Of a DNA stretch of 41,852 bases, positions 14,868 through 35,135 are shown piece after piece. Source of the DNA: a virus. The stretch covers positions 1-41,852 of the IMG/VR virus record IMGVR_UViG_3300024252_000033. One strand, 5' to 3'. The notes under the pieces were generated by a model. That model did not search any database. It was not told the origin of the DNA and was given only the letters and a program-made list of their open reading frames with translations. Within the stretch, counting starts at the first letter, position 1. Each line of letters starts with the position of its first letter. Made by a program: the position numbers and the translations under genes.

Positions 14868-14904
14868 ATTATACTTACAAATCCAATTTTTATAAAGGTG
14901 TTTA
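14868..14904 (-). promoter_or_regulatory. late-box promoter (spike operon)
   Basis: TAAACACCTTT (14894-14904), 20 nt, then TATAAT (14868-14873) on the minus strand, upstream of the 148-residue gene. One of eight promoters with this box and spacing. Confidence 0.75.
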
Positions 14905-14909
14905 TAGAT

Positions 14910-16055
14910 TTATATTAGTGATTCTAAATCTATAGTCATTTTAGAGATAGTCGGTGTAGCTATTAGAATGTTAAATTTGTTATATATGCCGAATAAAATT
15001 AGACTATCATATCCATCTGTTTCAAACATAACCGGAATGCCACGGTATTTGACAAGTAAATCATATACTAAATCTGTAAGACCCGCAGGTATATCGACTG
15101 TTAGACTATTTGTAGCTTTATAATTACCTTGCTGTAAATAAGTCTCACCAGTTGAACCAATTTGCTTCTTAGAAAAGTCTATCATACCCAAACCAGCACC
15201 ATATAAAGTAGCCCCAGTGTAGTTGGTTTTACCAATTCCAACCAACCCAACTTTAGCAATACCACTAATAGGCTTTATTGTTATATCAATAGTCACACCT
15301 AGACTTATAGGAATAGGAGTATTTAACTTAGATTTATATATAAAATCATTAAAGAAATAATTATAAAAAGTACCACCATTTTTGCTTATCAATGGTATGG
15401 TTTGATTATGTAATTCTATAGGCGTAGAGCCGGTGGTATTTACTGTTATAGTTATCTCACTTGCCACTAAGTTAATAAAATAAACCTCATCTACCCTCGC
15501 AGTAATAAATGACATAGTAATATCACCACCATCTATAGCACTATCACTTACTGTCTGTGAACTTAAAGACTGGTCGAGACATTTGTATTTATTAACATAG
15601 CCTAAATCCTCCCATTTAAGAGGTGTTTCTATCGGATTATATCTATGATATCTTAATTCACTAACCGTATCGCCTACACCTATTAGAGTGAAGTTAGAAG
15701 GTGTTGTTAAATCTTCTGTAGTAAAGTTTATATCATCAGTTACTTTAGCTATGTAATAACTATTATTATCAGTTACATAAACAGTAGTGACCGCATTAAC
15801 TACTGAAACTGAAGTATTATCGGAGACTTCAACACCCGTATTAGCAATAGTTGTATAGTGAGGACTCAAAGGGTCTGTATTGTCATAGATATAAGTAACT
15901 AACGGGTATATAATACCTAATGCTTTATATAACTTATTGTTTAATTGTCTTATAGTATCTATTGCATAGTCGCTATCTATATTCCATATGGGAGTAGTAT
16001 CATCTGCTAGGTTAGTAGCTAAGTAGTCTATGTCTTTAAGTGGTGTTAGATTTAT
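14910..16055 (-). CDS. tail protein downstream of tape measure; apparent non-canonical start
   Basis: The reading frame is open from a TAG at 16074-16076 to the stop at 14910, but no ATG, GTG or TTG occurs before the TTG at 15869, which has no ribosome site. The segment above 15869 reads like protein (NLTPLKDIDYLATNL, then WNIDSDYAIDTIRQLNNKLYKALG), and a strong AAAAAAAGGA site precedes ATC ATA AAT at 16050-16058. I therefore place the start at the ATA (16055), giving about 382 residues; a point mutation of ATG or a sequencing error would look the same. Mainly beta-strand in composition; its location after the tape measure suggests a distal-tail or hub protein. Confidence 0.6.
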   Translation of the reverse strand: MNLTPLKDIDYLATNLADDTTPIWNIDSDYAIDTIRQLNNKLYKALGIIYPLVTYIYDNTDPLSPHYTTIANTGVEVSDNTSVSVVNAVTTVYVTDNNSYYIAKVTDDINFTTEDLTTPSNFTLIGVGDTVSELRYHRYNPIETPLKWEDLGYVNKYKCLDQSLSSQTVSDSAIDGGDITMSFITARVDEVYFINLVASEITITVNTTGSTPIELHNQTIPLISKNGGTFYNYFFNDFIYKSKLNTPIPISLGVTIDITIKPISGIAKVGLVGIGKTNYTGATLYGAGLGMIDFSKKQIGSTGETYLQQGNYKATNSLTVDIPAGLTDLVYDLLVKYRGIPVMFETDGYDSLILFGIYNKFNILIATPTISKMTIDLESLI

Positions 16056-16091
16056 GATAAATCCTTTTTTTCTCTATAATATTTATTATAA

Positions 16092-16128
16092 ATACTACAA
16101 TATAAAAATAAATATTCAAAGGTGTTTA
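16092..16128 (-). promoter_or_regulatory. late-box promoter (distal tail gene)
   Basis: TAAACACCTTT (16118-16128), 20 nt, then TAGTAT (16092-16097). A TATAAT 27 nt away is also present, but the 20-nt spacing agrees with the other members. Confidence 0.65.
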
Positions 16129-16136
16129 TGATATAA

Positions 16137-19100
16137 TTATAATGCTTTAAGCCCATCATTTTGTATTCTAAGTAAGGTGTCATAGACATTATTGTTTGTC
16201 TTTAGAACTTCAATCATTATAGCTTCTAGAGTAGCAAGTCTATCATCATTACTTGTAGGGTTTGCAACTGTCACAGTTGGTGTTAGAGTAGAGGTCGTAG
16301 TAGCATGGTCTAAATCACTTGCGACTATTCTAACCATAAGCACTTCATCTTTAAAATCTATCATAGCCTTATTCGCTTCTAAATTGCTGATAAGGTTCTT
16401 GTTTATAGAAGATGTATCGCCAAAAGAAGCATTTGAGACACTCGCACTTAATGAAGTTATTTCTCCTAGCAACTCACGAGCCTTATCACTATCTCCAGAA
16501 GCTAAAGAACTCTCAAAAGCACTCTGTGTCAGGTTTATCCTTTTTATCTCATCATTTGTTAGCTCATCTGTTGTCATGGTTGAATTTTTAATGCTTCTAA
16601 TAGTAGAGTCTATACTTTCCGCCATTGATTGCATATTATCAGAAAAGCTATCAATAGTAGATGTAAGCATTTCTTTATTAGCCATAAGTGCATCAAGTTC
16701 AATGTCGCTAAGCCCTTCTGCATCAGTCGATAGCATATTAAATATAGAAGATAATTCATCTAGAGTTGTAGCTAGTGTAAATCCAGCTTCACTAGCCAAA
16801 TCATTAGCCAATTCATCATCTGTCTTAAAGCTATCTGTCCAAGTTTTTATATTATCAGTTGAAGTTTCAAGTGCATCATTGATAAGTTCTAGTGCATCGG
16901 CATAATCTTGTCCAACTTGCCAAATTCCACCAACTTCCATCAATGAAGCTAGTCTTTCAATTCCAGCTGTATCTAAATTACCTTGCTTTTTAAGTAGTGC
17001 TAACTCATTTATTTCATTTAGCACATCCGTATAGGCTTCGGTATCAAAAGAGCCTAAATCCCCAACACTTGTATTTATGTTCTTCAAGCCTTCTAATGTC
17101 ATAAGTTCAAAATCTAGTGAATCGGCTAGAGTTTCTAACAACAAATCTGTTCTGTTTGATTGTAAATCAGCTAGTATACCCCTGTTGTTCACCTCATTAA
17201 ACCAAGCTTCCACTCCGGCTTCCCAACGATAAGTCCCCTCTTCTTTGCTCTTAGCCACATTTGCATATAGTCTAGCTTGTTCATCATTAATAGCAGTTAT
17301 TGATTCCGTATAAGCTTCAAGAGTCTCACTAATACTAGAACCAACATTTCCAAAGGCTTCTAATTTTTCAGCCGCACTATCAAGCCCTTCTATAAAAGCA
17401 TCAAAGTTTCCGCCATAATTAGCCATTTCTAAATTAGTACCACTTTGGAAGTCTGCAGAGTCTATTTGAGATGAATAGTCTGGTGCTGATTTACTTGAAC
17501 TTCCACCGCCACCGCCACCGAATCCAGCAACACTAACTCCAATTGAAGCCAACATTGCTCCAACTGTTAAAAATGCTGGTATATTTGAAGGGGGAGGTAA
17601 AGTCAATGCAGCGGCTAAAGCTGTTTGTCCATAGATCCCCTGCTTCGTTGTTTCAGAAGTTGCAACCATCATCAAGTCAGCAACTCGTGCAACTTGGTCG
17701 GCTACTCTAATTGCGGTAGTAACATCTTGCATTTGTTTAGCACCTGAACTGCCGGCTTCGTATGCACCAACTAATGACTGAGTCAAGTCTGCGGCTGCAC
17801 TCATTCCGGTCTGAATCCCAGTATAGTTGTCTTTCGCTACTTTTTTGTTGTCTTTTCCAGCATCATTAATTAAATCACCTTGAACCTTATAAAACTTCTC
17901 AATTTTATCAGTACTCCAAGTGTCGTCTATCGCTTCTTTTAGTCTCATAAAGTTTTCAATAGCTAAGTCTTGATTCGACTTCATTGAGTCTGTTGCTTCT
18001 TGCTGGAGAGCTTTCTTCTGTTCCTCTAGCTTATTTGCTTCTTCTAGCAAATAAGCATTATGAGCGACAACGTGAGAATCGTAGTTTGTGTAGTCAGGGA
18101 TAGAAACAGGCTTGTCTTTGTCTTTTTTACCAACAAGTCCACCACCGGAAGTATCAGCAAGAGCCTTCTTCTTTTCTTCCATTAATTTTATTTCAGCTTT
18201 TATTGATGCTATATTCTCTTCATGCTTTTTTTTATCTTCATTCGTCCAGAATTTTTTACCTAAACTTGTCCATGATGCACCTTCACTTTCATAAGCTTCT
18301 GACAACTCTCTGCTTAATGTAGCAAGTCTAATATTGATGTCACCTATCTTAGTTATGTCTTTTGTATCTCTAAACTGTAAAAGTAGAGCTTTCCACTGAC
18401 CGCCAAGATATTCTACTTCATCAGTAAAGTCTTTTATAAATCCTTTTGATGCTCCGAAAATATCCTCAGTTAATGCACCAGCCAACTTGTCCCATTGATT
18501 AGTTAAATTAGATACAGATACAGCCATAGTGTCTACAGCTTGGAATTCTCCAAATCGTTTAGTTAATAGTGCTGTAACGTTTGAACTTTCTTTTAGAACT
18601 TTATTTGTAATTCCCATAGAGCTTAAAAATCTACCTAAGTCACTATTCGCTAAAACTGTACCAGTTGCTAATCCATCAACACCAGCTAATAATGAGTTAA
18701 ATTCTATACCAGCCGCACCACTTGCAATGGATAAACTCCTAGTAAGTTCAACCATTTCTTTAGTTGTGGCTCCAACTGCTTTCATAGATGGGTACATAGA
18801 TTTATAAATTTTAGATGTTTGACCTAGTGTATGAGGGGTTTGTGCATTTATTGCTTCAAGTGCTGAAAATGTTTTAAGTGATTCCTTTCCAGCTAGATTA
18901 TATTTCTCTTGTAGTGTTAAGTGCTTGCCCATAGAGTCTACATTAGTAGAAGTAGCTACTGTCAATGCTGTTAGCCCAGCCACTTGCTCCTCTATTAGTT
19001 TATTGTATGCAAATCCTCTTTTTGCAACTAAATCATAAGCTGTACTTAATGTCACAAAACCAGCTGCAGCATAAGCTAATTCTTTTGACATATTCCTCAT

Positions 19101-19211
19101 GCCAACCGATGCTACATTAGTTGATACTTTTAATTTGTTTAATTGACCTTGTAACTTCTTTATCTCCGGTGTAGCCTTGTCATCAACTCTGAATTTTAAT
19201 TGTAAAGCCAT
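16137..19211 (-). CDS. tape measure protein
   Basis: 1024 residues, the longest gene in the window. The N-terminus (LKFRVDDKATPEIKKLQGQLNKLK) and following Ala-rich region match tape-measure N-termini. The middle is helical and charged, and a hydrophobic stretch sits around 535-570 (SNIPAFLTVGAMLASIGVSV) followed by a Gly run. It sets tail length and helps genome entry; at about 1.5 angstrom per residue it predicts a tail near 150 nm. It lies downstream of the frameshifted chaperone pair, the standard siphovirus order, and has its own late-box promoter. Confidence 0.92.
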   Translation of the reverse strand: MALQLKFRVDDKATPEIKKLQGQLNKLKVSTNVASVGMRNMSKELAYAAAGFVTLSTAYDLVAKRGFAYNKLIEEQVAGLTALTVATSTNVDSMGKHLTLQEKYNLAGKESLKTFSALEAINAQTPHTLGQTSKIYKSMYPSMKAVGATTKEMVELTRSLSIASGAAGIEFNSLLAGVDGLATGTVLANSDLGRFLSSMGITNKVLKESSNVTALLTKRFGEFQAVDTMAVSVSNLTNQWDKLAGALTEDIFGASKGFIKDFTDEVEYLGGQWKALLLQFRDTKDITKIGDINIRLATLSRELSEAYESEGASWTSLGKKFWTNEDKKKHEENIASIKAEIKLMEEKKKALADTSGGGLVGKKDKDKPVSIPDYTNYDSHVVAHNAYLLEEANKLEEQKKALQQEATDSMKSNQDLAIENFMRLKEAIDDTWSTDKIEKFYKVQGDLINDAGKDNKKVAKDNYTGIQTGMSAAADLTQSLVGAYEAGSSGAKQMQDVTTAIRVADQVARVADLMMVATSETTKQGIYGQTALAAALTLPPPSNIPAFLTVGAMLASIGVSVAGFGGGGGGSSSKSAPDYSSQIDSADFQSGTNLEMANYGGNFDAFIEGLDSAAEKLEAFGNVGSSISETLEAYTESITAINDEQARLYANVAKSKEEGTYRWEAGVEAWFNEVNNRGILADLQSNRTDLLLETLADSLDFELMTLEGLKNINTSVGDLGSFDTEAYTDVLNEINELALLKKQGNLDTAGIERLASLMEVGGIWQVGQDYADALELINDALETSTDNIKTWTDSFKTDDELANDLASEAGFTLATTLDELSSIFNMLSTDAEGLSDIELDALMANKEMLTSTIDSFSDNMQSMAESIDSTIRSIKNSTMTTDELTNDEIKRINLTQSAFESSLASGDSDKARELLGEITSLSASVSNASFGDTSSINKNLISNLEANKAMIDFKDEVLMVRIVASDLDHATTTSTLTPTVTVANPTSNDDRLATLEAIMIEVLKTNNNVYDTLLRIQNDGLKAL

Positions 19212-19242
19212 AATACACCCTAATAGTTTATTTTATTAAGAT

Positions 19243-19279
19243 ATATTACACTAAAAAAGTTATTTTATATAGGTGTTTA
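19243..19279 (-). promoter_or_regulatory. late-box promoter (tape measure)
   Basis: TAAACACCTAT (19269-19279), 20 nt, then TAATAT (19243-19248) on the minus strand, upstream of the tape-measure ATG at 19211. The box has one change (TTT to TAT). Confidence 0.7.
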
Positions 19280-19370
19280 TGTTTTTAGAGTATGTGATGA
19301 TTTCTTCGTAGGAATTGTAGATAAAGTTATTTTTAAGTGATGAAAACATATAATTAGAACAGTCCGACAT
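19260..19370 (-). CDS. possible 36-aa peptide
   Basis: ATG at 19370 and stop at 19260, beginning MSDCSNYMFSSLKNNF. The ribosome site is weak and the ORF runs through the late-box promoter, so coding is doubtful. It is listed because it fills most of the gap between chaperone and tape-measure genes. Confidence 0.25.
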   Translation of the reverse strand: MSDCSNYMFSSLKNNFIYNSYEEIITYSKNINTYIK

Positions 19371-19405
19371 GGACAGACTAATTCTTTTATTCTAGCCTTT
19401 TTAGT

Positions 19406-19426
19406 AAGTGCTATTTTTTAGCACTT
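19406..19426 (-). other. stable hairpin at end of chaperone gene
   Basis: Perfect 8-bp stem AAGTGCTA/TAGCACTT with a 5-nt loop, spanning the stop codon of the chaperone extension. There is no U run after it on the minus strand, so it is more likely an RNA-stability element than a terminator. Confidence 0.45.
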
Positions 19427-20263: not shown

Positions 20264-21193
20264 TTATACAGTAGCAGCATCATTTGTAAGAGTTATTACT
20301 AGAGCAGAGCTAGATGCTCCGGCTCTCCAAAAAGCTGTATAATTAAATGTTTGAGTTAATCCTTGTGGACTATCAACAGTGACCCCAGTAGGTTCTAATA
20401 CTACTTCCTCCATATCGAAAGCGATACCACCAGAACCGTTCGTAAGTGTAATATTTAAAGTTTGGTCTACATTATCACGAGCAGCCGCCAATAGTGTATC
20501 ATTTTCATATAAAGCAGTAAAACTCCCAGAAACACCAACCATTCCGAGTGGAATTTCTCCACGAATACCGCCATCACCAATCACATACTGACCGCCATCA
20601 AGATTGTTAGTATATGAAAGCGACATATCTTTAACATTAACAGCACCAGTAACAACAGCTTGAAATTGCTCAAAGTTAAAGTTATTAGTTAAATCGGTTG
20701 GAGATAAAATCTCAGTTGCGGAACGAGTAACTTTTTGACCCATAGCATTTATATTAAGAAGTAACTCACCGTCACCACCGAAAGAAATATCAAAAGAGTT
20801 CATTTTAATACCATTAGCTAAGTGAAATTCACCTAAGTCTTTGTGAGCAATCTCTGTAAAGATAGATGGAATACTGGTGTCATTAACCTTAAATGTATGA
20901 ATATACGGACCAGCACCAGCAGTAGTAGGAGCACCGAAGAATCCCTCCAGCCATTTAGGAGTAGATTTAGTATCAAGAGGTACAGAAAATGAACCATCAA
21001 CCGCCTTAAATCCTAAAAAACTTCTATCCATGTTACGAGTACCACGAATAATTGAACTATCATTAAGAGCTTGAGTCTCTTTAATATCTAATGTAGGAGC
21101 AAAAGGGACTTCATAGCTAGTAGCACCAGTGACCCCAAAACTTGTTTCTAATCCCATTCTAAACGATACCGACGAGCCCTGAGCTTGTGACAT
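20264..21193 (-). CDS. major tail tube protein
   Basis: 309 residues, beta-rich. The start MSQAQGSSVSFRMGLETSFG is followed by SSIIRGTRNM, SVPLDTKSTPKWLEGFFG and GELLLNINAMGQK, matching siphovirus tube proteins of the phage-tube type. The C-terminal part (GVTVDSPQGLTQTFNYTAFW) is the final strand pair. Forms the stacked rings of the tail. Behind its own late-box promoter, as expected for a high-copy protein, and followed by a terminator-like hairpin and the chaperones. Confidence 0.88.
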   Translation of the reverse strand: MSQAQGSSVSFRMGLETSFGVTGATSYEVPFAPTLDIKETQALNDSSIIRGTRNMDRSFLGFKAVDGSFSVPLDTKSTPKWLEGFFGAPTTAGAGPYIHTFKVNDTSIPSIFTEIAHKDLGEFHLANGIKMNSFDISFGGDGELLLNINAMGQKVTRSATEILSPTDLTNNFNFEQFQAVVTGAVNVKDMSLSYTNNLDGGQYVIGDGGIRGEIPLGMVGVSGSFTALYENDTLLAAARDNVDQTLNITLTNGSGGIAFDMEEVVLEPTGVTVDSPQGLTQTFNYTAFWRAGASSSALVITLTNDAATV

Positions 21194-21220: not shown

Positions 21221-21257
21221 ATTATATATTAAATATTTATTTTGTTAAAGGTGTTTA
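21221..21257 (-). promoter_or_regulatory. late-box promoter (tail tube)
   Basis: TAAACACCTTT (21247-21257), 20 nt, then TATAAT (21221-21226) on the minus strand. The first bases of the box are the stop codon of the upstream tail-terminator gene. Confidence 0.78.
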
Positions 21258-22604: not shown

Positions 22605-23126
22605 TTATCGACCTATATCAAAAAATGCAGAAGATGATCCATTGCTAACTAAATCGCCAATTAATGAAGTTACACTCTCTGGCATAGTATTGAATGACTT
22701 ATTTATATTATCAGAACTATCAAGAGCATATTTAATATCAAGAGTACCGAGTTTAATCTTTTCGATTGTATCAACATTAGAACCTTGCTGTGACATATCA
22801 ACCGATAATATATGTAGTGCTAATTCGTATTGGGCTTCTTTTAATATTGTTGGGATAGTAGAGTCTAAGAATATACCATCTAAATAGCCAAGTGATAAGC
22901 GAGGAAAAGGAAGTGCTTGAGTATTTGACTCACGAGTGCCATAAAACTTCTCAGTGTTGATTCTCTTTGTAGCCATCACTAAAGCCTGATTTCGTTTAAT
23001 GTCATCAGTCAAAGAAGTCCAAGCTTCTGAGTACATTCTACCATCAAAATAAGTATTTGCTTCTGTTAAAGTCACATAAGAATTTGAGCCAACACCACCA
23101 ATTGTAGCATCTATAACTAATGACAT
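22605..23126 (-). CDS. head-tail connector/adaptor protein
   Basis: 173 residues. NSYVTLTEANTYFDGRMYSEAW followed by RNQALVMATKRIN and ALPFPRLSLGYLDG is the pattern of the phage adaptor family often mis-annotated as DnaT-like ssDNA-binding. It attaches below the portal. First gene of the neck operon, with its own late-box promoter at 23150-23186. Confidence 0.78.
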   Translation of the reverse strand: MSLVIDATIGGVGSNSYVTLTEANTYFDGRMYSEAWTSLTDDIKRNQALVMATKRINTEKFYGTRESNTQALPFPRLSLGYLDGIFLDSTIPTILKEAQYELALHILSVDMSQQGSNVDTIEKIKLGTLDIKYALDSSDNINKSFNTMPESVTSLIGDLVSNGSSSAFFDIGR

Positions 23127-23149: not shown

Positions 23150-23186
23150 ATTATACACTTTAGTTTATATATTATAAAGGTGCTTA
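23150..23186 (-). promoter_or_regulatory. late-box promoter (neck operon)
   Basis: TAAGCACCTTT (23176-23186), 20 nt, then TATAAT (23150-23155) on the minus strand; one base of the box differs. It starts two bases below the stop of the 58-codon gene. Confidence 0.75.
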
Positions 23187-24322: not shown

Positions 24323-24448
24323 AAATTATTAAATTATCGACTACTTGACAAATATATAAAAAAATGTTAATATCTCGTTCAGAGATATTAAATTATCTAA
24401 ATTATTAAATTATCGAAAATTTAACGGATTAAATTATCGTAAATTATC
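24323..24448. repeat. AAATTAT octad operator array, copy 1
   Basis: Seven copies of AAATTAT(C/T): two adjacent at 24323 and 24331 upstream of the plus promoter, and five downstream at 24390, 24399, 24407, 24431 and 24441; two pairs are in exact 8-bp phase. A palindrome AATATCTC-gttca-GAGATATT (24369-24389) covers the -10 and start region. The arrangement matches the second array at 36550-36705 and looks like a repressor or iteron array. Confidence 0.7.
24345..24373 (+). promoter_or_regulatory. plus-strand sigma70 promoter for 24510-29653 operon
   Basis: TTGACA (24345-24350), 17 nt, then TAATAT (24368-24373): near-consensus vegetative promoter. The -10 lies in an 8-bp palindrome and operator repeats flank it on both sides. 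Drives the only plus-strand genes, about 130 nt downstream. Confidence 0.75.
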
Positions 24449-24509: not shown

Positions 24510-24734
24510 ATGAAACAACAAATAAATGATTTTTTAAATATAACTGCTGTAGATATATATGTGGATTCTAGTAAGGTGACTAAGCTATTCTCTAAAGTAA
24601 TAGGGTATAATAACGGTAATATAAGTACAGTTTCCATTACTGATGAAGTAAATGGCGGCACACTAAACAAAGTAATGGCTTACCTAGATGGTAATATATC
24701 TAGTGTAACATCTACTTACACGGAGGGTATCTAA
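24510..24734 (+). CDS. small hypothetical protein, plus operon (74 aa)
   Basis: 74 residues with an internal imperfect repeat: KVIGYNNGNISTVSITDEV and KVMAYLDGNISSVTSTYTEG, read as two beta-hairpins. A similar hairpin (ITYNDNGSINTITITDQNG) is in the minus-strand gene at 29692-29931. AAAGGA precedes the ATG, and the stop overlaps the next ATG. Likely a small virion or fibre-linker protein. Confidence 0.65.
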   Translation: MKQQINDFLNITAVDIYVDSSKVTKLFSKVIGYNNGNISTVSITDEVNGGTLNKVMAYLDGNISSVTSTYTEGI

Positions 24735-27676
24735 TGGCATACATAATTGACTATAAAACTCAACACACATCAAGTATAGATGATTCAGGATTTACTATAG
24801 AAGAACCACCACTATTAAATGTTAAAGCTGGAGACTTACTGGTAATGGCATGGGGAGCTAACACAGATGCAGAAGTTCAACTGCTTGATGGATTTAATCT
24901 TGCTACACACATAACATCAAATGAAACTATAACTTCAACAAGTTTTACAGTTGGTGCTTTAAATATGTTCTTTCAAGATGGTGATGTACTACAAATAGGT
25001 GATGAAAAGATACTAATAACAAGTGGAGCTGGTGATAGGACATTTAATGTTCAAAGAGCATACGATGGTACAACAGCAGTAGCACATAGTGACAACGAAA
25101 ATATATGGAAGATAGATGATGCAGGTGGAATAGGTGGAGCAGACTGGAAGCCAGTACCTCATGGATGTTCAACAATGGATGTGTGTGAAGCTAAGATGTA
25201 CTACAAGTTTGCAGAAGTTGATGGGGAACAAGTATCGACATGGACTTGTCCTGTAGTAGGAACATACATGTATATGTTTACAGCAGCAATCAGGGGAGTA
25301 CATCCAACAGACCCATTTATAGATGCAGGTACTTCATACTATACAAATAGTGCAAATACACAAGTATCATATCCTGATTTAGTAGCAACATCAGAAGACC
25401 AGTTGGCATTGTATGTAGGTAGCTCAGATGCTGATACAATAACAACTGGTTCTCATGGTAGAGCAGGATTATATTTAGCAACAGATGTTAAAATGTATCA
25501 AGGTATATCAAGTGGAGTTGGCTCAATGGGAGCATTTGAAGATACAGTACCAAGTGACCAAACAGCAGCGATAGGTGTATTGTTTAGAGATGACCCAGCC
25601 AATGCGATAATACCTCTACAAATAACACCATCAAATTCATTAGTAAAAATAGATGCTGACAATACAAGTGATGATACTTGGATGGAAGCAATATACGCAA
25701 GTGGAATAGACCCAAAGACTGGGATAGCAAGAGTTAATCAAATGCCTAATTTAGAGATGATAGCTACAACTTCACAATGGGTATTCAGAATTGATAACGG
25801 TGGTACAGACTGGCTAGATAATGGAGTCATAGGGGAAACTGTAACCTTTGGAGATGGAAGCACAGGTAAACTAGGCTGGATTAGAAGATACCAAACGGCT
25901 GCAAGTGGTAGAGCATACATGATGGTATATGACTACAATGGAGGACTACAAGCAAATAATTCTACTGTAGTTGGTTCTACGAGTACAGCAAGTGCTTTAA
26001 TATACAGTACAGGTACAAGTTATCAGAGTGCTGTAACCAACTATGTCAAGTCAGACATAAAACTAAATACATACGAAACACTAAAGATTAGTGGCTGTAC
26101 AGGAGTAGGGATTAGTGATGGTGTATACTTTGTGAAAGCCCACGATATAATGAATACCACAAATGAGGGTTATTGGTATCAACTAATATCTCATGCAGAA
26201 AGAAGAGAAGATGGAGTGGTTCAGACATTCTCAGTAGGTACAGCAAGCCCAACATTAGCACCTTATCATATGATTAATAGAGCCTATACATATTCAGAGG
26301 GAGACACTAATTTAATAACAAGAGGTACAACAGGTAATCAAGCTGGGTGGAAAGCAAACTACTTAGGCTCATTTAAGTCGTGGGTTACACCGATAGACTA
26401 TTCAAGTGAAGCACTGGCAATATGGTCAAGACACTATAATGGTAATGCAGCAAAGACATACTTTTGTGCGATTGATAGCTCAAATAACTGGAAGATATGG
26501 ATTATAAACAATAAGACAGCAGCAGGGTTCCAATATGCTTCACCAGAGTTTAGAACATTTGATTTAAATTCTACTGATACTCCAAAGTACCAAACACAAA
26601 GCTTTAATAGCAATGCAATAAAATATATTGGGTTTATGTTAGAAACTACAAGTGACACAAGTAGAGATACTATGTATATGTACGACCAATATACACTAGA
26701 CTTACAGACAGTAAGAGGTGGAGGTGAAAGTTTTGGTGTGCCTCTTCTTGATATAGAGAAGCTCTTAGCAGTTGAAGAAACACTAAACGGACAGAGCTTT
26801 ACAGAGGGGCTAAAAGCATATACACCAACAATGCTTGTAGCATCAAAAACTATAAGATTTTCTTGTTACATGGGTTCATCAAACCAAGCACTAGGATTTC
26901 TACCACAAGCAGATGGTATAGGAAACTTTATATATAATGTTGATGGAGATAGCAGTGTATTTGGATTGGAATTTACTGATGCAAAAGGTAGTGTAGCGAG
27001 TCTGCTGACGAGCGATAAAGGTAACTTCTTAAAAACTGGTGGTACTGCTACTGTAGGTTTAGAGGGTTCAACTATTGCAAACTACAATCCTACTTTTCAA
27101 ATTGGCGAAACAATTACTGGTGTAAGATTTACTGGGTGTGGGCAGATAAGTGGTGGAGCAACACTTACAAACTGTATTATTACAGGACATACAGGAAGTG
27201 GTGGTGTGTTGTTTGATGGATTTATTAATGGTGGTAGTTACAGTAATAACACCTATGGAGTAGAAATAGATACGGCTGGAACATATGAGTTAAATGATGC
27301 TACTTTTAGCAACAACACACAAGATATAAATGTAACAGCAACAACTGGAACAGTAACTATAATCACTAATGTAGCAAGGATGACTTATATAACTGCTGGA
27401 GCTATTGTTGATATACAAGCACCAGAAACTAAACTAACATTAACTGGATTACAGATTGGTAGTGATGTAGTTATATTAGAAGCTGGTACTCAAACAGTAT
27501 TAGCAAGTGTAGCCCAAGGTGGTACTTCATTCAACTATACCTATTCTACATTGATAGATATAGATATAGGAGTTATTAAGCAGGGGTATATAACTTTGTA
27601 TCAGTATGGATACACGCTAGGTTCAACTAGTGCTAACTTACCGATAACACAACTAGTAGACAGGAATTATGTATGA
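24734..27676 (+). CDS. large virion-like protein (980 aa)
   Basis: 980 residues, beta-rich, Gly/Thr/Ser-rich, few charges. Begins MAYIIDYKTQHTSSIDDSG, with an early DVLQIGDEKILITSGAGDRTFNVQRAYDGT block that is common in phage baseplate or fibre proteins. From about 780 it has repeated short coils (ITGVRFTGCGQISGGATLTNCIITGH) like a beta-helix, and near the end a LTLTGLQIGSDVVILEAGTQT domain like those in marine phage structural proteins. Probably a tail or head decoration protein that contacts the host. Confidence 0.65.
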   Translation: MAYIIDYKTQHTSSIDDSGFTIEEPPLLNVKAGDLLVMAWGANTDAEVQLLDGFNLATHITSNETITSTSFTVGALNMFFQDGDVLQIGDEKILITSGAGDRTFNVQRAYDGTTAVAHSDNENIWKIDDAGGIGGADWKPVPHGCSTMDVCEAKMYYKFAEVDGEQVSTWTCPVVGTYMYMFTAAIRGVHPTDPFIDAGTSYYTNSANTQVSYPDLVATSEDQLALYVGSSDADTITTGSHGRAGLYLATDVKMYQGISSGVGSMGAFEDTVPSDQTAAIGVLFRDDPANAIIPLQITPSNSLVKIDADNTSDDTWMEAIYASGIDPKTGIARVNQMPNLEMIATTSQWVFRIDNGGTDWLDNGVIGETVTFGDGSTGKLGWIRRYQTAASGRAYMMVYDYNGGLQANNSTVVGSTSTASALIYSTGTSYQSAVTNYVKSDIKLNTYETLKISGCTGVGISDGVYFVKAHDIMNTTNEGYWYQLISHAERREDGVVQTFSVGTASPTLAPYHMINRAYTYSEGDTNLITRGTTGNQAGWKANYLGSFKSWVTPIDYSSEALAIWSRHYNGNAAKTYFCAIDSSNNWKIWIINNKTAAGFQYASPEFRTFDLNSTDTPKYQTQSFNSNAIKYIGFMLETTSDTSRDTMYMYDQYTLDLQTVRGGGESFGVPLLDIEKLLAVEETLNGQSFTEGLKAYTPTMLVASKTIRFSCYMGSSNQALGFLPQADGIGNFIYNVDGDSSVFGLEFTDAKGSVASLLTSDKGNFLKTGGTATVGLEGSTIANYNPTFQIGETITGVRFTGCGQISGGATLTNCIITGHTGSGGVLFDGFINGGSYSNNTYGVEIDTAGTYELNDATFSNNTQDINVTATTGTVTIITNVARMTYITAGAIVDIQAPETKLTLTGLQIGSDVVILEAGTQTVLASVAQGGTSFNYTYSTLIDIDIGVIKQGYITLYQYGYTLGSTSANLPITQLVDRNYV

Positions 27677-27759
27677 TAGAACAAATAACAACAACAACAG
27701 ATGGAAAGTACACAGGTACTATCATAGATACACGTAGAGACGAAAGAAGTAGGCAATGA
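27673..27759 (+). CDS. 28-aa peptide between virion genes
   Basis: ATG at 27673 overlaps the stop of the 980-residue gene and its TGA overlaps the next ATG (CAATGAG). Product starts MIEQITTTTDGKYTGTIID. Too short for a domain call; it may serve only for translational coupling. Confidence 0.45.
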   Translation: MIEQITTTTDGKYTGTIIDTRRDERSRQ

Positions 27760-29102
27760 GTAAGATAACAAGTAGAACCCTCTTAAATGTAGGTACGAAT
27801 CTTATCATAGATAAGCCAAACAGAACGATAGAGCTAGTTGAGGCTGGGAATTTGAACCCAAAAGATGGTGTGGCATTTCAAACAATCTATTCTAAGTTTG
27901 TAGATTTATGGAGTACTTCAGAGTACCAAAATAACCCATTCCCATTCAATGCACTAGATGCACTTTCAGGACAGTACCTAATTGGTATTGATGCCGGTGG
28001 TAATGCTAATGGATGGAAGTGGTTAAATGACACTACTAGACAGATGGTTCGTGATGGTGGTTGGGAAGAGTACAACTCTTCTGGTGGACTAGAAAGAGTA
28101 TACGCTGGTATCGTTGGACTTGGTGCTTTAGGCCTTAGTTCTCAACCTTACTATATAGCTGACGCTAGTGATGCTCCTACAAACTTTACGTTTGATGGCC
28201 AAGCAAATGAAGGTATCCAAGTTTACGGTGATGCTAGTAACGGTGATTTTGACAAGAGAGTATACTTTAAAACGTTTGTTAGAGAGCAGGGTAAAAAGTA
28301 TTCAGATTCAGTACTAGCAGATACAGGTAAGATAGCTACAGGTGCTTATATCGTTAATATGCTACTAAGTAATGAAGATGACCTAAAGATAAGCGACTTA
28401 GACACTGAAATGACTAATGCTCCTTATGATGGTATCACAGTAGAGTATTTTGCGGTTGACCAAACTAGAGATGTTGGTGGAGTAGACTATAACTATGATG
28501 TAATAGTAAATGGTAATGGAGCTACTCTAGAGCAAATCTACACTAAGTTGCAGTACCTACTTAGACAATCATCAGATATTGATATCGGTGCTGGTACAGT
28601 TGTCGGAAAAACTGCAGCATTACTTGCCGGTTTTGTTGGCTCTACATTAGAAACTACTATTGGTGTGTATGTAGACAATATTCAAAATGCAGATAGCAAT
28701 AGAATAAAGTTTAAAGATACAAGTGGGATATTCAGAGAGAACCCGTTTGAGTCGGCAGGTATTATGAGCTTTAACACTATCATGGTTGGAGCAGGGTCTA
28801 GTTATAGAATGATGTACACTAGCCCAGACGGAGCTGGTAATGACTACGGTGAAGCTGGTGCGATTACAGTAAATGACGCTAGTGGGTTACCTATTACAGG
28901 TATGATTACTTCAGGGGAAATTGGATTTACTTTTGACTTCGATAATGATGCTGTAGGAGGTCCTGCTGCTACTGATAAAGCAGTTACGTTGGTCGGGATT
29001 CGTCCCAACAGTTCTAAGTTTGCTGTTGCTACTGGGGTTCTTACTAAGTCAAAAGGTATCAGTCTTGGGCTGGTTGCGGAAGCGGATAGAGCTTATACTT
29101 AA
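27756..29102 (+). CDS. virion-like protein (448 aa)
   Basis: 448 residues, mixed alpha/beta with a beta-rich C-terminal third (GEIGFTFDFDNDAVGGPAATDKAVTLVG). It contains DGGWEEYNSSGGLERVYAG and YNYDVIVNGNGATLEQIYTKLQYLLR, patterns I associate with structural proteins in marine phage genomes beside 150-residue proteins like the next gene. Function unknown beyond probable virion component. Confidence 0.6.
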   Translation: MSKITSRTLLNVGTNLIIDKPNRTIELVEAGNLNPKDGVAFQTIYSKFVDLWSTSEYQNNPFPFNALDALSGQYLIGIDAGGNANGWKWLNDTTRQMVRDGGWEEYNSSGGLERVYAGIVGLGALGLSSQPYYIADASDAPTNFTFDGQANEGIQVYGDASNGDFDKRVYFKTFVREQGKKYSDSVLADTGKIATGAYIVNMLLSNEDDLKISDLDTEMTNAPYDGITVEYFAVDQTRDVGGVDYNYDVIVNGNGATLEQIYTKLQYLLRQSSDIDIGAGTVVGKTAALLAGFVGSTLETTIGVYVDNIQNADSNRIKFKDTSGIFRENPFESAGIMSFNTIMVGAGSSYRMMYTSPDGAGNDYGEAGAITVNDASGLPITGMITSGEIGFTFDFDNDAVGGPAATDKAVTLVGIRPNSSKFAVATGVLTKSKGISLGLVAEADRAYT

Positions 29103-29133
29103 TATCTTTTCGGTATAATCTCAATTGTAATAC

Positions 29134-29155
29134 AGTAGTCTCTCCGGAGGCTACT
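29134..29155 (+). other. stable hairpin between plus-strand genes
   Basis: AGTAGTCTC/GAGGCTACT, 9 pairs with one U-G, 4-nt loop, in the 77-nt gap. No U run follows, and a TATAAT lies upstream (29114-29119), so it could be a processing or stability element or part of the next gene's leader. Confidence 0.4.
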
Positions 29156-29179
29156 ACTACTTCAATAAAAAGGATACTT

Positions 29180-29653
29180 ATGTTTATATTCGACGGTGCT
29201 GCAAAAACTATTAAGATTATTGACGATACTGTCGATGACAACAATTTTGTAACGTTTACTCCTGAAGCGCTGTGGACTGCTTATGTGGACTGGGCTGCGG
29301 AAGGTGATAACCTGAAGTATAGTAGAGCTCTTGAGGTTACTGGGGGTAATGATATTGGTGGTGGTGAAGCTGTTGGTAACTATGTGTTCCTTCGTAATGA
29401 CCTTGGTTGGGTTGGAATACCTCCAAGCTCTGACGGTGTGTCTATTATTGTTAATGGTTCTCTATATGGTAAAGACCCAATGTTACCAGTTATAACCTCA
29501 GTTCCTGGGCAGGCGGTAAATCTAATTATTAATAGGTCAGTAGTTTCAACACTAAGAACTGTTAATAGTGGAAGTGGATTATCAACTGAAGAGCATGATA
29601 GATTATTCTTGAATGCATCTAAATCTGACGTGTTTAACGCAAGTCAGATATAA
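29180..29653 (+). CDS. virion-associated protein (157 aa)
   Basis: 157 residues. MFIFDGAAKTIKI, then EALWTAYVDWAAEGDNLKYSRALEVTGGNDIGGGEAVGNYVFL and GWVGIPP follow the pattern of a small phage structural family (FxFDGxxKxI, then LWxxWxxW, then GGxxIGGGxxxGxYxFL). The C-terminus ends in STEEHDRLF, common in tail and fibre proteins as a helical linker. Last gene of the plus operon; AAAAGGA precedes the ATG. Confidence 0.65.
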   Translation: MFIFDGAAKTIKIIDDTVDDNNFVTFTPEALWTAYVDWAAEGDNLKYSRALEVTGGNDIGGGEAVGNYVFLRNDLGWVGIPPSSDGVSIIVNGSLYGKDPMLPVITSVPGQAVNLIINRSVVSTLRTVNSGSGLSTEEHDRLFLNASKSDVFNASQI

Positions 29654-29931: not shown

Positions 29932-29934
29932 TTA

Positions 29935-30321
29935 TTACTTCTCGAATACCGTATAATACTCAAATTTTGAGCCTTTTCTTCTGTAGTATTTACCAATACC
30001 ACGACTTGTATTCTTTTCTTTGAATAGCTCAAAAGTGTCTAATTCAAGAACGATAACATTACCCATAGCAAGTATGTCATCCGTCTTTATAATATACTCT
30101 TTGATGGGTTCACAGTATGTCTTTGTATATAATTCAGTATTAGGGAGGTTGGGAATTAGTGGCTGTGATTTAGAAATAGTCATGGCTTTAATAAAAAAAT
30201 CCTTTATCTTTGGGACATAACTCTCTCCTACAATTGATGACAGAGTAAGGACTAAAGATATCAATACTATATATTTCCATTCTTTCATTGACTTTAGAAG
30301 TAGTAATTTGTAAAAGTTCAT
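29935..30321 (-). CDS. single-pass membrane protein (128 aa)
   Basis: 128 residues: basic N-terminus, one membrane segment (about 16-33, YIVLISLVLTLSSIVG), then a soluble domain of about 95 residues. AAGGGG is 6 nt before the ATG; a start at M12 is possible. Directly behind a late-box promoter. No family recognised; it could be a late envelope protein (for example exclusion or lysis control). Confidence 0.6.
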   Translation of the reverse strand: MNFYKLLLLKSMKEWKYIVLISLVLTLSSIVGESYVPKIKDFFIKAMTISKSQPLIPNLPNTELYTKTYCEPIKEYIIKTDDILAMGNVIVLELDTFELFKEKNTSRGIGKYYRRKGSKFEYYTVFEK

Positions 30322-30346: not shown

Positions 30347-30383
30347 ATTGTACTATATAAAGTAGATACTACAAAGGTGTTTA
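30347..30383 (-). promoter_or_regulatory. late-box promoter (128-aa membrane protein)
   Basis: TAAACACCTTT (30373-30383), 20 nt, then TACAAT (30347-30352) on the minus strand. Confidence 0.72.
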
Positions 30384-30389
30384 AGTATA

Positions 30390-30527: not shown

Positions 30528-30589
30528 TTCAGTTCCTTATATTAAATAGACTCAACAAAGAGGATGAATTAACACCCCCTAAGTTCAAT

Positions 30590-30754
30590 TTACTTCTTAT
30601 TTCTGATAGCTGCTATATGTGCAAAGTAATCTTTTTCTTCTACAACTTGACCCTTAACGAAACCATCTTTATTGACAGTCCCTTTAGGATTAGGTTTAGC
30701 CACCGGAGACATTACTATCTCTGGCTCTGGCTTATCATCTCCAAGTAAACTCAT
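30590..30754 (-). CDS. small protein following major capsid gene (54 aa)
   Basis: ATG at 30754 behind an excellent AAGGAGG site, 12 bases below the capsid stop. 54 residues, MSLLGDDKPEPEIVMSPVAK then PNPKGTVNKDGFVKGQ and a short helix. The strong ribosome site and the place suggest an abundant head-associated protein. No family recognised. Confidence 0.65.
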   Translation of the reverse strand: MSLLGDDKPEPEIVMSPVAKPNPKGTVNKDGFVKGQVVEEKDYFAHIAAIRNKK

Positions 30755-30765
30755 TGTCTACCTCC

Positions 30766-31782
30766 TTAATTTGTTATTAAGAAAGCAAGTGGTACTGACT
30801 TTCTATCTACAACACGAGTCCATACAGCCGCAGAAGCAAGTTCTGTTAGTGTATAACCACCTTCAGCAGTTGGAACTCCAACAGATTGATAACCAAAAGG
30901 ATGTAGGCACCAAGTCTTTCTTTCACCAATGTTTTCAATACCAGCACCGTTACCACCTAATTCATCTCTTTCTATTGCTACTGGAACCTTAGGCACACCA
31001 TCACCGTAACCAAATGCACCTCTACCAAACAATACGGTAGTATATTTAAACCCATCAGTAGCACCAGCAGTAACAGTCATGCCATCATCGACAATAACTC
31101 TTTTACCCATAAATGTGGGAATAGTTAGTGAACCGTTAGAGTCTGGAATAAAGTCAATATCATCAGCATCTACCATTTGCTTCATAATTGCTGAGTGAAC
31201 AGCTAACATAGCAATATCTTCGGCAGCATCACCCATTGTAAAGACCGCAGAGGTAAAGTTTGCTCTTGACCATTTAGTAGTAGGAAATTGTGTAGCGATT
31301 GCTTCGGACGAAACATCTACTACCATATCGCCAGCATTTGTAACAACATTGTCAGCAAGAATACCATTAGACACTGCGATTACAGTTCTTTGAAATTGTC
31401 TTGACCAGTATGTACCAAATCTATTACGAACGTGTTGATTAGCATCTGCACCAGCAATTTCACCAGCTAAATCAGCATTTGAATACCATTGGTTAAGGAA
31501 TCTTGAGCGACCTACCATTTTAGCAGTAGCGAGCTTCTGAGCAGTAGCTTTAACAGCAGGGTCTGAACTTGATAAGTTTGCTTCTACAGTTGAATCTAAA
31601 TCTTTCCAAAATGGAAGATTAAAAGTATCGCCACCTGAACCAGCTTGAGCATTTAAAACTGGATTGTTTACAATAATTCCACTTTGTACGAATACAGTTT
31701 TTTCCGGTGAATCTACCGCATCGTATGTTAAATATACTTCCGGTACGATTACGTCCGAAATTCTAGTTGTTCCAATTGCCAT
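30766..31782 (-). CDS. major capsid protein
   Basis: 338 residues. Start MAIGTTRISDVIVPEVYLTY, then SGIIVNNPVLN, GGDTFNLPFWKDLD, the helix LATAKMVGRSRFLNQWYSNADLAGEIAG, a P-domain segment IPTFMGKRVIVDDGM, and a closing KTWCLHPFGYQSVG. This is the pattern of a siphophage coat protein family with HK97-type fold. Lies directly after the scaffold gene with 5 bases between. Confidence 0.9.
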   Translation of the reverse strand: MAIGTTRISDVIVPEVYLTYDAVDSPEKTVFVQSGIIVNNPVLNAQAGSGGDTFNLPFWKDLDSTVEANLSSSDPAVKATAQKLATAKMVGRSRFLNQWYSNADLAGEIAGADANQHVRNRFGTYWSRQFQRTVIAVSNGILADNVVTNAGDMVVDVSSEAIATQFPTTKWSRANFTSAVFTMGDAAEDIAMLAVHSAIMKQMVDADDIDFIPDSNGSLTIPTFMGKRVIVDDGMTVTAGATDGFKYTTVLFGRGAFGYGDGVPKVPVAIERDELGGNGAGIENIGERKTWCLHPFGYQSVGVPTAEGGYTLTELASAAVWTRVVDRKSVPLAFLITN

Positions 31783-31787
31783 TTATA

Positions 31788-32531
31788 TTATCCTCGACTA
31801 AATAGTCTATTAAATTCTGTTGGATTGCTTTTAAACAATGCCATTCTTTCTGTCTCTGACATATCAGAAGATTTTTTGCCCGTTGGTTGGTTTGGTGGAG
31901 GAGTACCGCCACCGTTGTTTACTATTTCACGAGATAAGAATTTAGGGTTTAAAGTTTTCTTCAAAGAATCGGTTATATATGTTAAAGGTAATGGTGACTG
32001 GTCTTGACTCGTTACATCCGTAAGAATATTACCGTGTCCATCATTAACATACCATGCACCGTCTTTAAATAATGCCTTCTCTCGTATCTTCTTATCAATT
32101 AGAGTCAAAGTATCAGGGTCAGAAATATCAAAGCCTTCATAAAGACCTTTCTCTTTCACCGATTGAACAAAGCTCATCTCTGTTAGTTTTCCGTCTTTAT
32201 CCGCAATACTAGCTTCATGTGCAGAGATAAGGCTTCTCAACTCTTCCTCTCTACCCTGATACTGCTTATCAAGAGTTTCTTTTAGTTCTAGCTTAATAGC
32301 TTCAATATCACCGCTATTCTTACTATTTTTGCTAAGTTCTCTTACTTCACTTGATAGTTTTTCATTACTAGACTCTAGCTCTGAGTTTTTCATTTTAAAC
32401 TTGTCACGAGACTCTATAGTGTCTTTGTGTGTGCCATCTATCTTGTTAAGTATTCCCTTTAGCTCCGACTTTATCTCATCCGAAATATCGTAACCATCTA
32501 ACTTTGTTAGTGCTTGTTCCATTTGACTCAT
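31788..32531 (-). CDS. capsid scaffolding protein
   Basis: About 247 residues: a long charged coiled coil (roughly 20-110), then a C-terminal globular part and a Gly/Pro hinge (NNGGGTPPPNQPTG) before a terminal helix (SETERMALFKSNPTEFNRLF). This is typical of gp20-like scaffolds, whose C-terminal helix binds capsid subunits. I chose ATG 32531 because AAGGA lies 7 nt upstream; an ATG at 32552 has no site. Directly upstream of the capsid gene. Confidence 0.82.
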   Translation of the reverse strand: MSQMEQALTKLDGYDISDEIKSELKGILNKIDGTHKDTIESRDKFKMKNSELESSNEKLSSEVRELSKNSKNSGDIEAIKLELKETLDKQYQGREEELRSLISAHEASIADKDGKLTEMSFVQSVKEKGLYEGFDISDPDTLTLIDKKIREKALFKDGAWYVNDGHGNILTDVTSQDQSPLPLTYITDSLKKTLNPKFLSREIVNNGGGTPPPNQPTGKKSSDMSETERMALFKSNPTEFNRLFSRG

Positions 32532-32590
32532 TGTTGTTTCCTTGTTTATCATCCGATAAAGATTTTAGTACTCATCCGAGTATTGATAGT

Positions 32591-32628
32591 ATTATATAGT
32601 AAAATTTTAAGGAAAGTAAAGGTGTTGA
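32591..32628 (-). promoter_or_regulatory. late-box promoter (scaffold-capsid)
   Basis: TCAACACCTTT (32618-32628), 21 nt, then TATAAT (32591-32596) on the minus strand; the only member with 21-nt spacing. Confidence 0.7.
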
Positions 32629-32646
32629 AGTTTAAGGAAATATGTG

Positions 32647-33714
32647 TTACTTATTTAGCAATAGAAGATTAACCTTATCCTTAGCCAACAACTTCTTTCT
32701 AGATACATTCATAGCATCCTTAAAGGACATCTTCCCATCTTTCCATAGTTCATATCTCTTAGCACCTAAATACTCTCTTTGGTACTTATCATCAAACGAT
32801 TTAAAGAATGTCTCAGGTGTTGAGCCTTTTGCTACTTGCTTGACTTCACCGACTTTAAACTTAGTTGATTTAGTTCCGTCTCTATGATTGACTTTTTTAC
32901 CATTCCATTGAACTATATTCTTATCTGGATTCAACTTATCAAACTCACGAATTAAATCATTTTGAGGTATCCAAACACTTCTACAATTATAATGTGTCTT
33001 AGGTCTATACTTTGCCGCTGCTTGTTCTTTAGTAATATACCCATTATGTAAGAAACAATACTTAGATGTTCTGGTATCCATAACAGCACTGAATTTATAC
33101 CCATCTATCTCATCTTCAAATTCTTTCCAACTCTCATTTTTAACCGCTTCGATATTCTCTAGCATAGAAGTACGGATTAAAGTATTAGCTTGATTTCTAT
33201 AAGTGGCTCCGATAGTATTTCTAACATTTCTACCTATTTCTGCTATTCCTTGACCTTTATCAAAGCCATTAATAATAATACCTTGTACTTTAGCAGTAGA
33301 GGTACTGTTAAGATGTTTAAAATGTTTGTCTAATGTATGCCCTTGAATTAGCATATTTTTATTTGTGAGTCTTGCTTTGGCTTCCTTAGATATGTCTTTG
33401 AATTTAGTGAAAGCTTTGGCGGCTTGAGTAGTAACAAACCCATCAGCCATGATAGAACCCATTTTATCCCAAGTAGTACCAGCAATATCTCTCATATCTT
33501 CTATAACAGCTTCATCTAAATCTTCAAAGGCTAGACTCATCTCTTTATTAACAAGTGTTCTTATTTTCTTCTGATTAGTTGTATTAGCTATTCCAGCTAA
33601 GATATTCTTCTGAGCTTGTAGTAGATTTTCTTCTAATATCAAAGCACTATCAGGCTGGACTCTCTCTAGATATAATAGTGCCTTAGTTACTTCTTGTTCA
33701 AGATTCTGAGTCAT
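32647..33714 (-). CDS. minor head protein (SPP1 gp7/Mu F-like)
   Basis: 355 residues. The C-terminal half has the Mu F-type signature: RTSMLENIEAVKNESWKEF, DTRTSKYCFLHNGYITKEQ and KTHYNCRSVWIPQ. The N-terminal half is helical. Such proteins sit inside the procapsid with the portal and help DNA exit. It overlaps the portal gene by 17 bases, as usual for portal-minor head pairs. Confidence 0.88.
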   Translation of the reverse strand: MTQNLEQEVTKALLYLERVQPDSALILEENLLQAQKNILAGIANTTNQKKIRTLVNKEMSLAFEDLDEAVIEDMRDIAGTTWDKMGSIMADGFVTTQAAKAFTKFKDISKEAKARLTNKNMLIQGHTLDKHFKHLNSTSTAKVQGIIINGFDKGQGIAEIGRNVRNTIGATYRNQANTLIRTSMLENIEAVKNESWKEFEDEIDGYKFSAVMDTRTSKYCFLHNGYITKEQAAAKYRPKTHYNCRSVWIPQNDLIREFDKLNPDKNIVQWNGKKVNHRDGTKSTKFKVGEVKQVAKGSTPETFFKSFDDKYQREYLGAKRYELWKDGKMSFKDAMNVSRKKLLAKDKVNLLLLNK

Positions 33715-35068
33715 CGTTACTCAACATACCGTCAGTTGCTATTTTCTCGCTCTCGGCTTCTTTATCGAAATCACTAGGTAATCTAAAAGTGCCACTTGCT
33801 ATGATTGAATACATAGTTTCTATAGACATAGTTCCACTTACTACCATTGTATTTAGAGCTAAAGCTTCTTGAGCTGTCAAAGGTTGAGTCAATATATCCG
33901 CTTCAACACCAATACTTCCACCATCATCTAAGTTATACATCTTAGCAGCCATAAGTAGCATTAGCTCAGCAGTATCTACTAATGACCTAACATAAGTATT
34001 TAGTTTTGACTGTGATTGATTAGTGCTTACACCAACCTCAAAAGCTGTAGTGTTTCCATCGCTAGTAATTGCAGATAAAGCTATCTCTCTCATCTTGGTT
34101 TCTATTCTATCTAGTAGAGTAGAGTTTATCGCAACACCTCCGCCATCATAATCTAACCATTCAACAGTAGCATCTGTGTTAGTGGTAGCAACAGCCTTAT
34201 TAGCACCTACTACCATTCCTTTTATCTCTTCCGCATCAAATCCGAACATCTTAAGCATTGGCACACTTGCTATATGAGCTGAGTGTCTAGAGTCTGTAAA
34301 TATCTGATAATGAGCGATATTCAAATTAGCTAAATCTAAAAATGGTGGCATAGCACTAAAGTATTCTTTACCACCTAAGTTAAGAGCAACTAATGGTATA
34401 AAGTTTAAGCCAGTGCTTCCACTCTCAATCTTAACTTCGCCATTCTGTTGAACTTGCCATATCTCATAGCCACCAATAGTTAATATTCTATACTGGTCAA
34501 TTGCTTCTTCTGCATAAGGATTATTAGCATCAGCTACCATAACTGACTCACGAATCTTAACCTGACTTAAAACTATCTGTCCACTTATAGTCTCTGTTTT
34601 CCAACTTGTGACATTCTCAGGCTGAATAATTGTATAGTATGGCTTGATCCCTTGAGCTATCTCATCGGCTTTACTTGTTACATTGTCACCTTTTGGAGTG
34701 TCTACTAATGCAAAACAAATCCCTTTTCTTAGTGCAGTGATAAATAGATTTTGGAGTAGCACATCAAAGTGATTACCTTGAGCATCTGCATTTTCTATAC
34801 TTGGAAGTAGTTGTGAAGGAATATTATCACCGTAAACAATAGGGTTTTTAAAGATAAGCCCAGCGATACCTTCTAAGTTTGGGTTAAATGAGTCGAAGAA
34901 AGTTCCCTTAGCTAGTCTATTGTCATAGCTCTTAGTAGTCTCTCCATCCTCTTTAGGAAGATAAGCCTCTCCAGATGATTTAATCTTATACCCACCTGCT
35001 ACAATGTCATCTATGAGCTTATAATGAGGAAGCTTATCGTTTAATATCGGTGATACATATTCTAGCAT
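33698..35068 (-). CDS. portal protein (DUF4055-like)
   Basis: 456 residues. YLPKEDGETTKSYDNRLAKGTF, LEGIAGLIFKNPIVYG and the stretch LRKGICFALVDTPKG match the DUF4055 portal family. A helical tail region (about 330-380) precedes the Asp/Glu-rich C-terminus. Forms the dodecameric DNA gate. First gene of the head operon behind a late-box promoter. Confidence 0.88.
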   Translation of the reverse strand: MLEYVSPILNDKLPHYKLIDDIVAGGYKIKSSGEAYLPKEDGETTKSYDNRLAKGTFFDSFNPNLEGIAGLIFKNPIVYGDNIPSQLLPSIENADAQGNHFDVLLQNLFITALRKGICFALVDTPKGDNVTSKADEIAQGIKPYYTIIQPENVTSWKTETISGQIVLSQVKIRESVMVADANNPYAEEAIDQYRILTIGGYEIWQVQQNGEVKIESGSTGLNFIPLVALNLGGKEYFSAMPPFLDLANLNIAHYQIFTDSRHSAHIASVPMLKMFGFDAEEIKGMVVGANKAVATTNTDATVEWLDYDGGGVAINSTLLDRIETKMREIALSAITSDGNTTAFEVGVSTNQSQSKLNTYVRSLVDTAELMLLMAAKMYNLDDGGSIGVEADILTQPLTAQEALALNTMVVSGTMSIETMYSIIASGTFRLPSDFDKEAESEKIATDGMLSNDDSES

Positions 35069-35098
35069 TAATAAGCCTTAGTTCTTTATTTTAGGCTT

Positions 35099-35135
35099 AT
35101 TATAGCATTCTATTTATTATTTACAAAGGTGTTTA
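35099..35135 (-). promoter_or_regulatory. late-box promoter (portal/head operon)
   Basis: TAAACACCTTT (35125-35135), 20 nt, then TATAAT (35099-35104) on the minus strand. Confidence 0.78.

Follow-up and report, generated by a model that had tools for sequence, protein, structure and literature searches.

A conserved upstream box marks putative head and tail gene promoters in a phage of probable Campylobacterota hosts

The virus record IMGVR_UViG_3300024252_000033, analyzed here from position 1 to 41,852 (35% GC) and called the window below, carries eight minus-strand copies of the box TAAACACCTTT, each followed at near-constant distance by a -10-type hexamer and each lying just upstream of virion genes. 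We consider it likely that these sites are promoters of the head and tail genes, used by host RNA polymerase carrying the main sigma factor and switched by a phage-encoded activator that binds TAAACACCTTT. The box is that of a conserved phage morphogenesis-regulon promoter family for which we found no description: an earlier reading of this DNA (the original prediction) had not recognized it from described phages, nor do we, and a literature search returned unrelated sequences only.

Eight boxed sites before head and tail genes

A pattern search of the window finds exactly eight TAAACACCTTT boxes on the minus strand at up to one mismatch (five are exact and three carry one mismatch), all of them with TANNNT 20 or 21 nucleotides (nt) downstream (Table 1). 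The spacing is 20 nt at seven sites and 21 nt before the scaffold gene. The CACC positions of the box are invariant, as are three -10 positions (T, A and T). Relative to a -10 placed at -12 to -7, the box spans -43 to -33 and is centered at -38; it is asymmetric, contains no dyad and stops short of the -10. At all eight sites the box starts 57 to 76 nt before the served gene, and most boxes begin less than 20 nt from the preceding stop codon, the TAA of the box at 21257 even serving to terminate the reading frame of the upstream gene.

This arrangement is far from random. Third-order Markov simulations gave, per strand, an expectation of 0.92 boxes and 0.07 boxes with a -10 (maximum 1), and the plus strand of the window has one box at up to one mismatch and none with a -10. 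We then scored the window with a matrix of box plus -10, built from the eight sites and five sites of relatives. The eight sites score 27.4 to 32.9 bits and the next-best match on either strand 11.3, the training set including the scored sites, which makes the gap, not the absolute score, what counts. The Markov expectation and this gap rule out chance repeats. An unbiased search for k-mers positioned at a constant distance before -10-like hexamers ranks the TAAACACCTTT motif first in the window; the same search found no equivalent motif in the loci of other relatives. The closeness of most boxes to an upstream stop codon could also fit a recombination, packaging or RNA-processing signal repeated at gene junctions, which would not be a promoter at all. 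We give this idea almost no credence, since the spacing to the -10 is nearly invariant and a ribosome site follows, the box is on the strand of the genes in every case, and conservation extends to the -10 but not to spacer and flanks.

The genes behind the boxes were identified by family matches. These are 1) for the head, portal (phrog_145, E 2.5e-93), scaffold (phrog_206) and major capsid (phrog_247), 2) for the neck, the head-tail adaptor (phrog_477), and 3) for the tail, tail tube (Phage_tube_2, 5.6e-39), tape measure (TMP_3/phrog_10093) and a distal-tail-type protein (phrog_6278, 4e-33) behind late promoter 7. Late promoter 8 precedes the gene of a 148-residue protein, downstream of which are beta-helix spike genes and an endolysin (phrog_315). 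Profile scans found no confident family for the 128-residue membrane-type protein. No box precedes the primase-helicase, the helicase, the methyltransferases or the terminase pair. The original prediction had listed these eight minus-strand sites, their spacing (20 nt in seven, 21 once) and the served genes (portal, scaffold-capsid, a membrane protein, neck, tail tube, tape measure, distal tail and spike), and had stated that no replication gene lies behind a box; all of this is borne out, and matches at random positions, which it had named as a sign against a promoter family, come down to the one plus-strand box.

Table 1. Putative late promoters and candidate regulator genes in the window (N20 and N21, spacing in nt between box and hexamer).
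Feature	Position (strand)	Composition	Context
Putative late promoter 1	35099..35135 (-)	TAAACACCTTT 35125-35135, N20, TATAAT 35099-35104	before portal 33698-35068
Putative late promoter 2	32591..32628 (-)	TCAACACCTTT 32618-32628, N21, TATAAT 32591-32596	before scaffold 31788-32552, major capsid 30766-31782
Putative late promoter 3	30347..30383 (-)	TAAACACCTTT 30373-30383, N20, TACAAT	before 128-residue membrane-type protein 29935-30321
Putative late promoter 4	23150..23186 (-)	TAAGCACCTTT 23176-23186, N20, TATAAT	before head-tail adaptor 22605-23126 and neck genes
Putative late promoter 5	21221..21257 (-)	TAAACACCTTT 21247-21257, N20, TATAAT	before tail tube 20264-21193
Putative late promoter 6	19243..19279 (-)	TAAACACCTAT 19269-19279, N20, TAATAT	before tape measure 16137-19211
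Putative late promoter 7	16092..16128 (-)	TAAACACCTTT 16118-16128, N20, TAGTAT	before phrog_6278 gene, open frame 14910-16073
Putative late promoter 8	14868..14904 (-)	TAAACACCTTT 14894-14904, N20, TATAAT	before 14401-14847, then beta-helix spike and lysis genes (13002 down to 8821)
Candidate regulator	39047..39271 (-)	74-residue helix-turn-helix (HTH) protein	two genes upstream of small terminase
Candidate regulator	38743..39054 (-)	103-residue basic protein	adjoins small terminase
Candidate regulator	35244..36110 (-)	288-residue multi-zinc-ribbon protein	just upstream of first box; own different promoter at 36205

The terminase (36955-38743) lacks a box although it is virion-related too, and so do the lysis genes themselves. 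The regulon is thus one of head/tail morphogenesis and does not comprise every late gene. The minus-strand late region is interrupted by a plus-strand block (24510-29653; proteins of 980, 448 and 157 residues) that has no box and in which the two proteins scanned matched no family. Upstream of this block we noted an AT-rich stretch, a repeated TTAAATTATC and a TTGACA-17-TAATAT site at 24345-24373. The phrog_6278 frame is open from 16073, but its first ATG, GTG or TTG comes only at 15869. Immediately before ATC/ATA codons at 16058/16055 lies a good ribosome site, AAAAAGGA, which suggests that translation of this gene starts at a rarely used ATA or ATC codon.

The box in related phages

We scanned 2.9 million viral contigs for the exact box-N20/21-TATAAT pattern. 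This returned 55 stretches, most of which look like single coding matches (flanks judged by eye). Besides a contig of the same species (3300024257_000045), the only contigs with several promoter-placed sites are L095 (3300005512_003587, two sites) and L087 (3300026533_000093, three sites), which are protein relatives (TerL 78%, portal 60%, head morphogenesis 46%; tail tube 72%). In L095, the boxes precede the portal (TAAACACCTTT-N20-TAACAT) and the scaffold (N21), and the unusual 21-nt spacing at the scaffold is thus common to L095 and the window. In L087, they precede the tail tube, at a site orthologous to late promoter 5, and two further tail genes; the tail operon is split there by opposite-strand genes, and the gene directly downstream has its own box promoter. 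Three of these five sites were not among the matches of the initial pattern search. Across the three orthologous promoters, identity is 97% in the box and 89% in the -10, falling to 51% in the spacer and 27% in the 40 nt upstream. L095 (144-1082, 1094-5223) also shares with the window the portal and head morphogenesis genes and the position of the scaffold, while its major capsid-type protein looks unrelated and had no relative in a search of the viral collection, as if the capsid had been replaced inside a conserved head module.

A third lineage carries a recoded box. In L127 and L162 (TerL 74-76%; L127 portal 43%) we found no TAAACACCTTT promoters. Instead, CTAACCCCTTT (also written CTAACCCCTTT/A) occurs exactly twice at up to one change, both times on the coding strand and with a -10 (TATAAT, TATACT) exactly 20 nt downstream. 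These sites precede only the portal and a coiled-coil protein that, by eye and in position, resembles the L095 scaffold and that we take as the scaffold. In 60 Markov simulations, CTAACCCCTTT never occurred together with a -10. Since the core AACnCCTT is common to TAAACACCTTT and CTAACCCCTTT and the geometry is identical, the CTAACCCCTTT set reads as the same system with a shifted DNA specificity. We rejected a hairpin as explanation for the CTAACCCC variant: the GGGG arm is found before the portal site in L127 and not in L162, whereas the box is found in both.

The box is not a property of all relatives that share the capsid, since we did not find it throughout the 62 loci, many of which share little beyond the capsid gene. 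One of them, L008 (capsid 68%, terminase 28%), has a single TAAACATCTTT-N20-TATAAT before a large gene in tape-measure position. Because its other late promoters use a different extended -10, TTGTANAATTC, and there is no second convincing boxed promoter, we treat this site as unproven. L008 and L254, with little shared beyond the capsid, have a recurrent promoter before several genes, in which TTGTANAATTC (extended -10) is followed by AAGGNGTTAAG.

The coordinated late regulon of the original prediction therefore stands as a structural-gene promoter family, on the strength of statistics, gene identities, two relatives and a recoded third lineage, but it leaves out the terminase and includes the lysis genes without a box of their own.

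Candidate readers of the box

Relatives of TerL occur in cellular genomes, namely a Helicobacteraceae metagenome-assembled genome (MAG; 69%), a cave MAG listed in the same phylum and one Gracilibacteria-labelled MAG. The host therefore probably belongs to Campylobacterota. In this phylum, sigma70 promoters read gnTAnaAT and have no -35 (PMC3847290), and a 2024 paper states that no phage infecting Sulfurimonas had been isolated (PMC11290706). The original prediction placed the box at -43 to -33, overlapping the -35, and its position is as described; however, because ordinary promoters of the inferred host phylum do without a -35, the lack of a normal -35 in the window does not by itself argue for an activator. 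A host regulator, such as a stress or growth-phase activator exploited by the phage, would have precedent in phages that use host activators. Nevertheless, across 397 Campylobacterota genomes box-N20/21-TATAAT gave three single matches versus one for the reversed control, which is chance level and rules out a host regulon, and the recoding in L127/L162 would require another host factor. We therefore regard this origin as very improbable.

In the likely explanation, host RNA polymerase with the main sigma factor would read the sites through the -10 hexamer, and a phage-encoded DNA-binding protein would recognize the asymmetric TAAACACCTTT at -43 to -33. The rigid distance to the -10 and the asymmetry of the site suggest, as for MotA in T4 (PMC2988021), that this protein touches sigma region 4 or the polymerase. 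Bound beside or on sigma region 4, it would most likely recruit or stabilize polymerase, so that virion genes would be expressed only after its accumulation. Late timing and activation are both inferred from the function of the genes served. Alternatively, sigma region 4 might be remodelled by a phage protein, or replaced by a phage sigma-like factor, with the box read as an altered -35. The rigid spacing, the coincidence of the last three T of the box with the first bases of a -35 having a 17-nt spacer and the precedent of MotA/AsiA (PMC2988021) would all suit such sigma appropriation, yet no AsiA-like or sigma-like gene was recognized among the scanned proteins and the box reaches 8 nt further upstream than a -35. 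This variant, which is a mechanistic subtype of the activator explanation, seems to us improbable.

Several points weigh against an activator: 1) it was the pattern itself that led to L095 and L087, and their agreement is therefore partly ascertained; 2) the conservation that the original prediction expected in related phages holds for L095 and L087, and in recoded form for L127/L162, but the more distant TerL relatives L128, L129-131, L155 and L157 show neither TAAACACCTTT nor CTAACCCCTTT; 3) promoter activity is predicted from sequence and the binding protein is represented by candidates only; and 4) with no -35 required in hosts of the inferred phylum, the promoters could be active unaided, which leaves room for a repressor. 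The box could then be an operator: bound at -43 to -33, a phage repressor would silence otherwise strong host-type -10 promoters early or in lysogeny, and its loss would permit late expression. That a bare -10 could suffice in the inferred host (PMC3847290) and that a Cro/CI-like HTH gene lies upstream would fit. On the other hand, the box is asymmetric and ends before reaching the -10, its spacing is constant within 1 nt across 15 promoters, which is more typical of polymerase contact, and no repressor or integrase module was recognized among the scanned proteins. Moreover, since late genes are positively regulated in every well-studied phage (PMC10695390), we favor activation and consider an operator unlikely, albeit a shade less so than sigma appropriation.

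The activator might be made from the gene cluster upstream of the terminase. The three candidate regulators (Table 1) all lie upstream of the first box, and none has a confident family or fold match. The HTH protein has a weak Phage_CI_repr match (0.0026) and no significant match in fold searches; its model shows an HTH, a hairpin and a long helix (predicted local distance difference test score, pLDDT, 73). Proteins in the same place are 35% identical to it in L124/L158 and 32% identical to the 103-residue protein in L124/L126/L158, and the order of these two genes directly before the terminase is kept in L124 and L158. By eye the 103-residue protein had resembled a ribbon-helix-helix, which we do not claim, its AlphaFold model being low-confidence (pLDDT 53) and all-helical. 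The cassette HTH protein-small basic protein-TerS-TerL spans 38198-39271 in the window, 940-1835 in L124 and 2010-2974 in L158. The 288-residue protein has CxxC pairs and a weak Zn_ribbon_8 match, and the homology search found no phage homologue. Its gene and a small-gene operon are preceded, at 36205 and 24243, by two similar copies of a second, non-boxed minus-strand promoter type, TATCTACATTTT...ACTTTAAGnAAAT..ATTATAAT, in which TATCTACATTTT is shortly followed by ACTTTAAGnAAATnnAnATTATAAT; weaker likenesses lie near 8559 and 1448.

Little is known about gene timing in Campylobacterota phages. The eight-copy cis-element, its orthologous sites in two relatives and the recoded set in a third lineage make for a concrete regulon, and the box can serve to predict late operons in uncultured phages; a short list of candidate activators comes with them. 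They also raise the question of how activation can work when sigma70 makes no use of a -35. As a tentative proposal, somewhat short of probable, we suggest an undescribed class of phage activators in Campylobacterota phages, with or without a sigma-remodelling partner, that is adapted to -35-less host promoters and whose specificity co-evolved with its promoter set (TAAACACCTTT versus CTAACCCCTTT in the sister lineage, with the same 20-nt geometry).

Comparison with known promoter systems

Like phage-activator-dependent late promoters, the eight sites have in common an element that precedes several late operons and keeps a constant distance to a host -10. Ogr-Delta of P2/P4 and C of Mu are small phage activators that each serve a set of late promoters; their sites are dyads, lying at about -55 for Ogr and near -43 for C. 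In contrast, the window box is single and asymmetric and lies at -43 to -33. A zinc-binding candidate is a point of likeness.

The sites resemble Campylobacterota sigma70 promoters in their -10 of TATAAT/TAnaAT type and the missing -35 hexamer (PMC3847290), but those promoters have no conserved 11-mer. They resemble T4 middle promoters in having a short, asymmetric, phage-specific box over the -35 position, at fixed (±1) spacing to a host -10, ahead of many phage operons (PMC2988021). However, the T4 MotA box, (a/t)(a/t)(a/t)TGCTTtA, has a GCTT center 12 ± 1 nt from the -10 and is centered at -30 (PMC2988021), whereas TAAACACCTTT has a CACC core, lies at 20/21 nt and is centered at -38; moreover, MotA/AsiA serves middle genes and the window boxes serve morphogenesis genes. 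No MotA/AsiA homologue was found among the Pfam/PHROG matches of the scanned proteins, which covered part of the small open reading frames and among which distant homologues could escape notice.

Phage P1 likewise has about ten late promoters with one activator site, that of Lpa, and its lpa gene adjoins the packaging genes pacA/pacB (PMC10695390), much as the HTH candidate adjoins the terminase genes here; the cassette described above is reminiscent of lpa-pacA-pacB. The Lpa site is a 9-bp inverted repeat (PMC10695390), while TAAACACCTTT has no such repeat and its flanks vary. With its own box, spacing and symmetry, the family belongs to a known kind, the activator-box promoters of phages.

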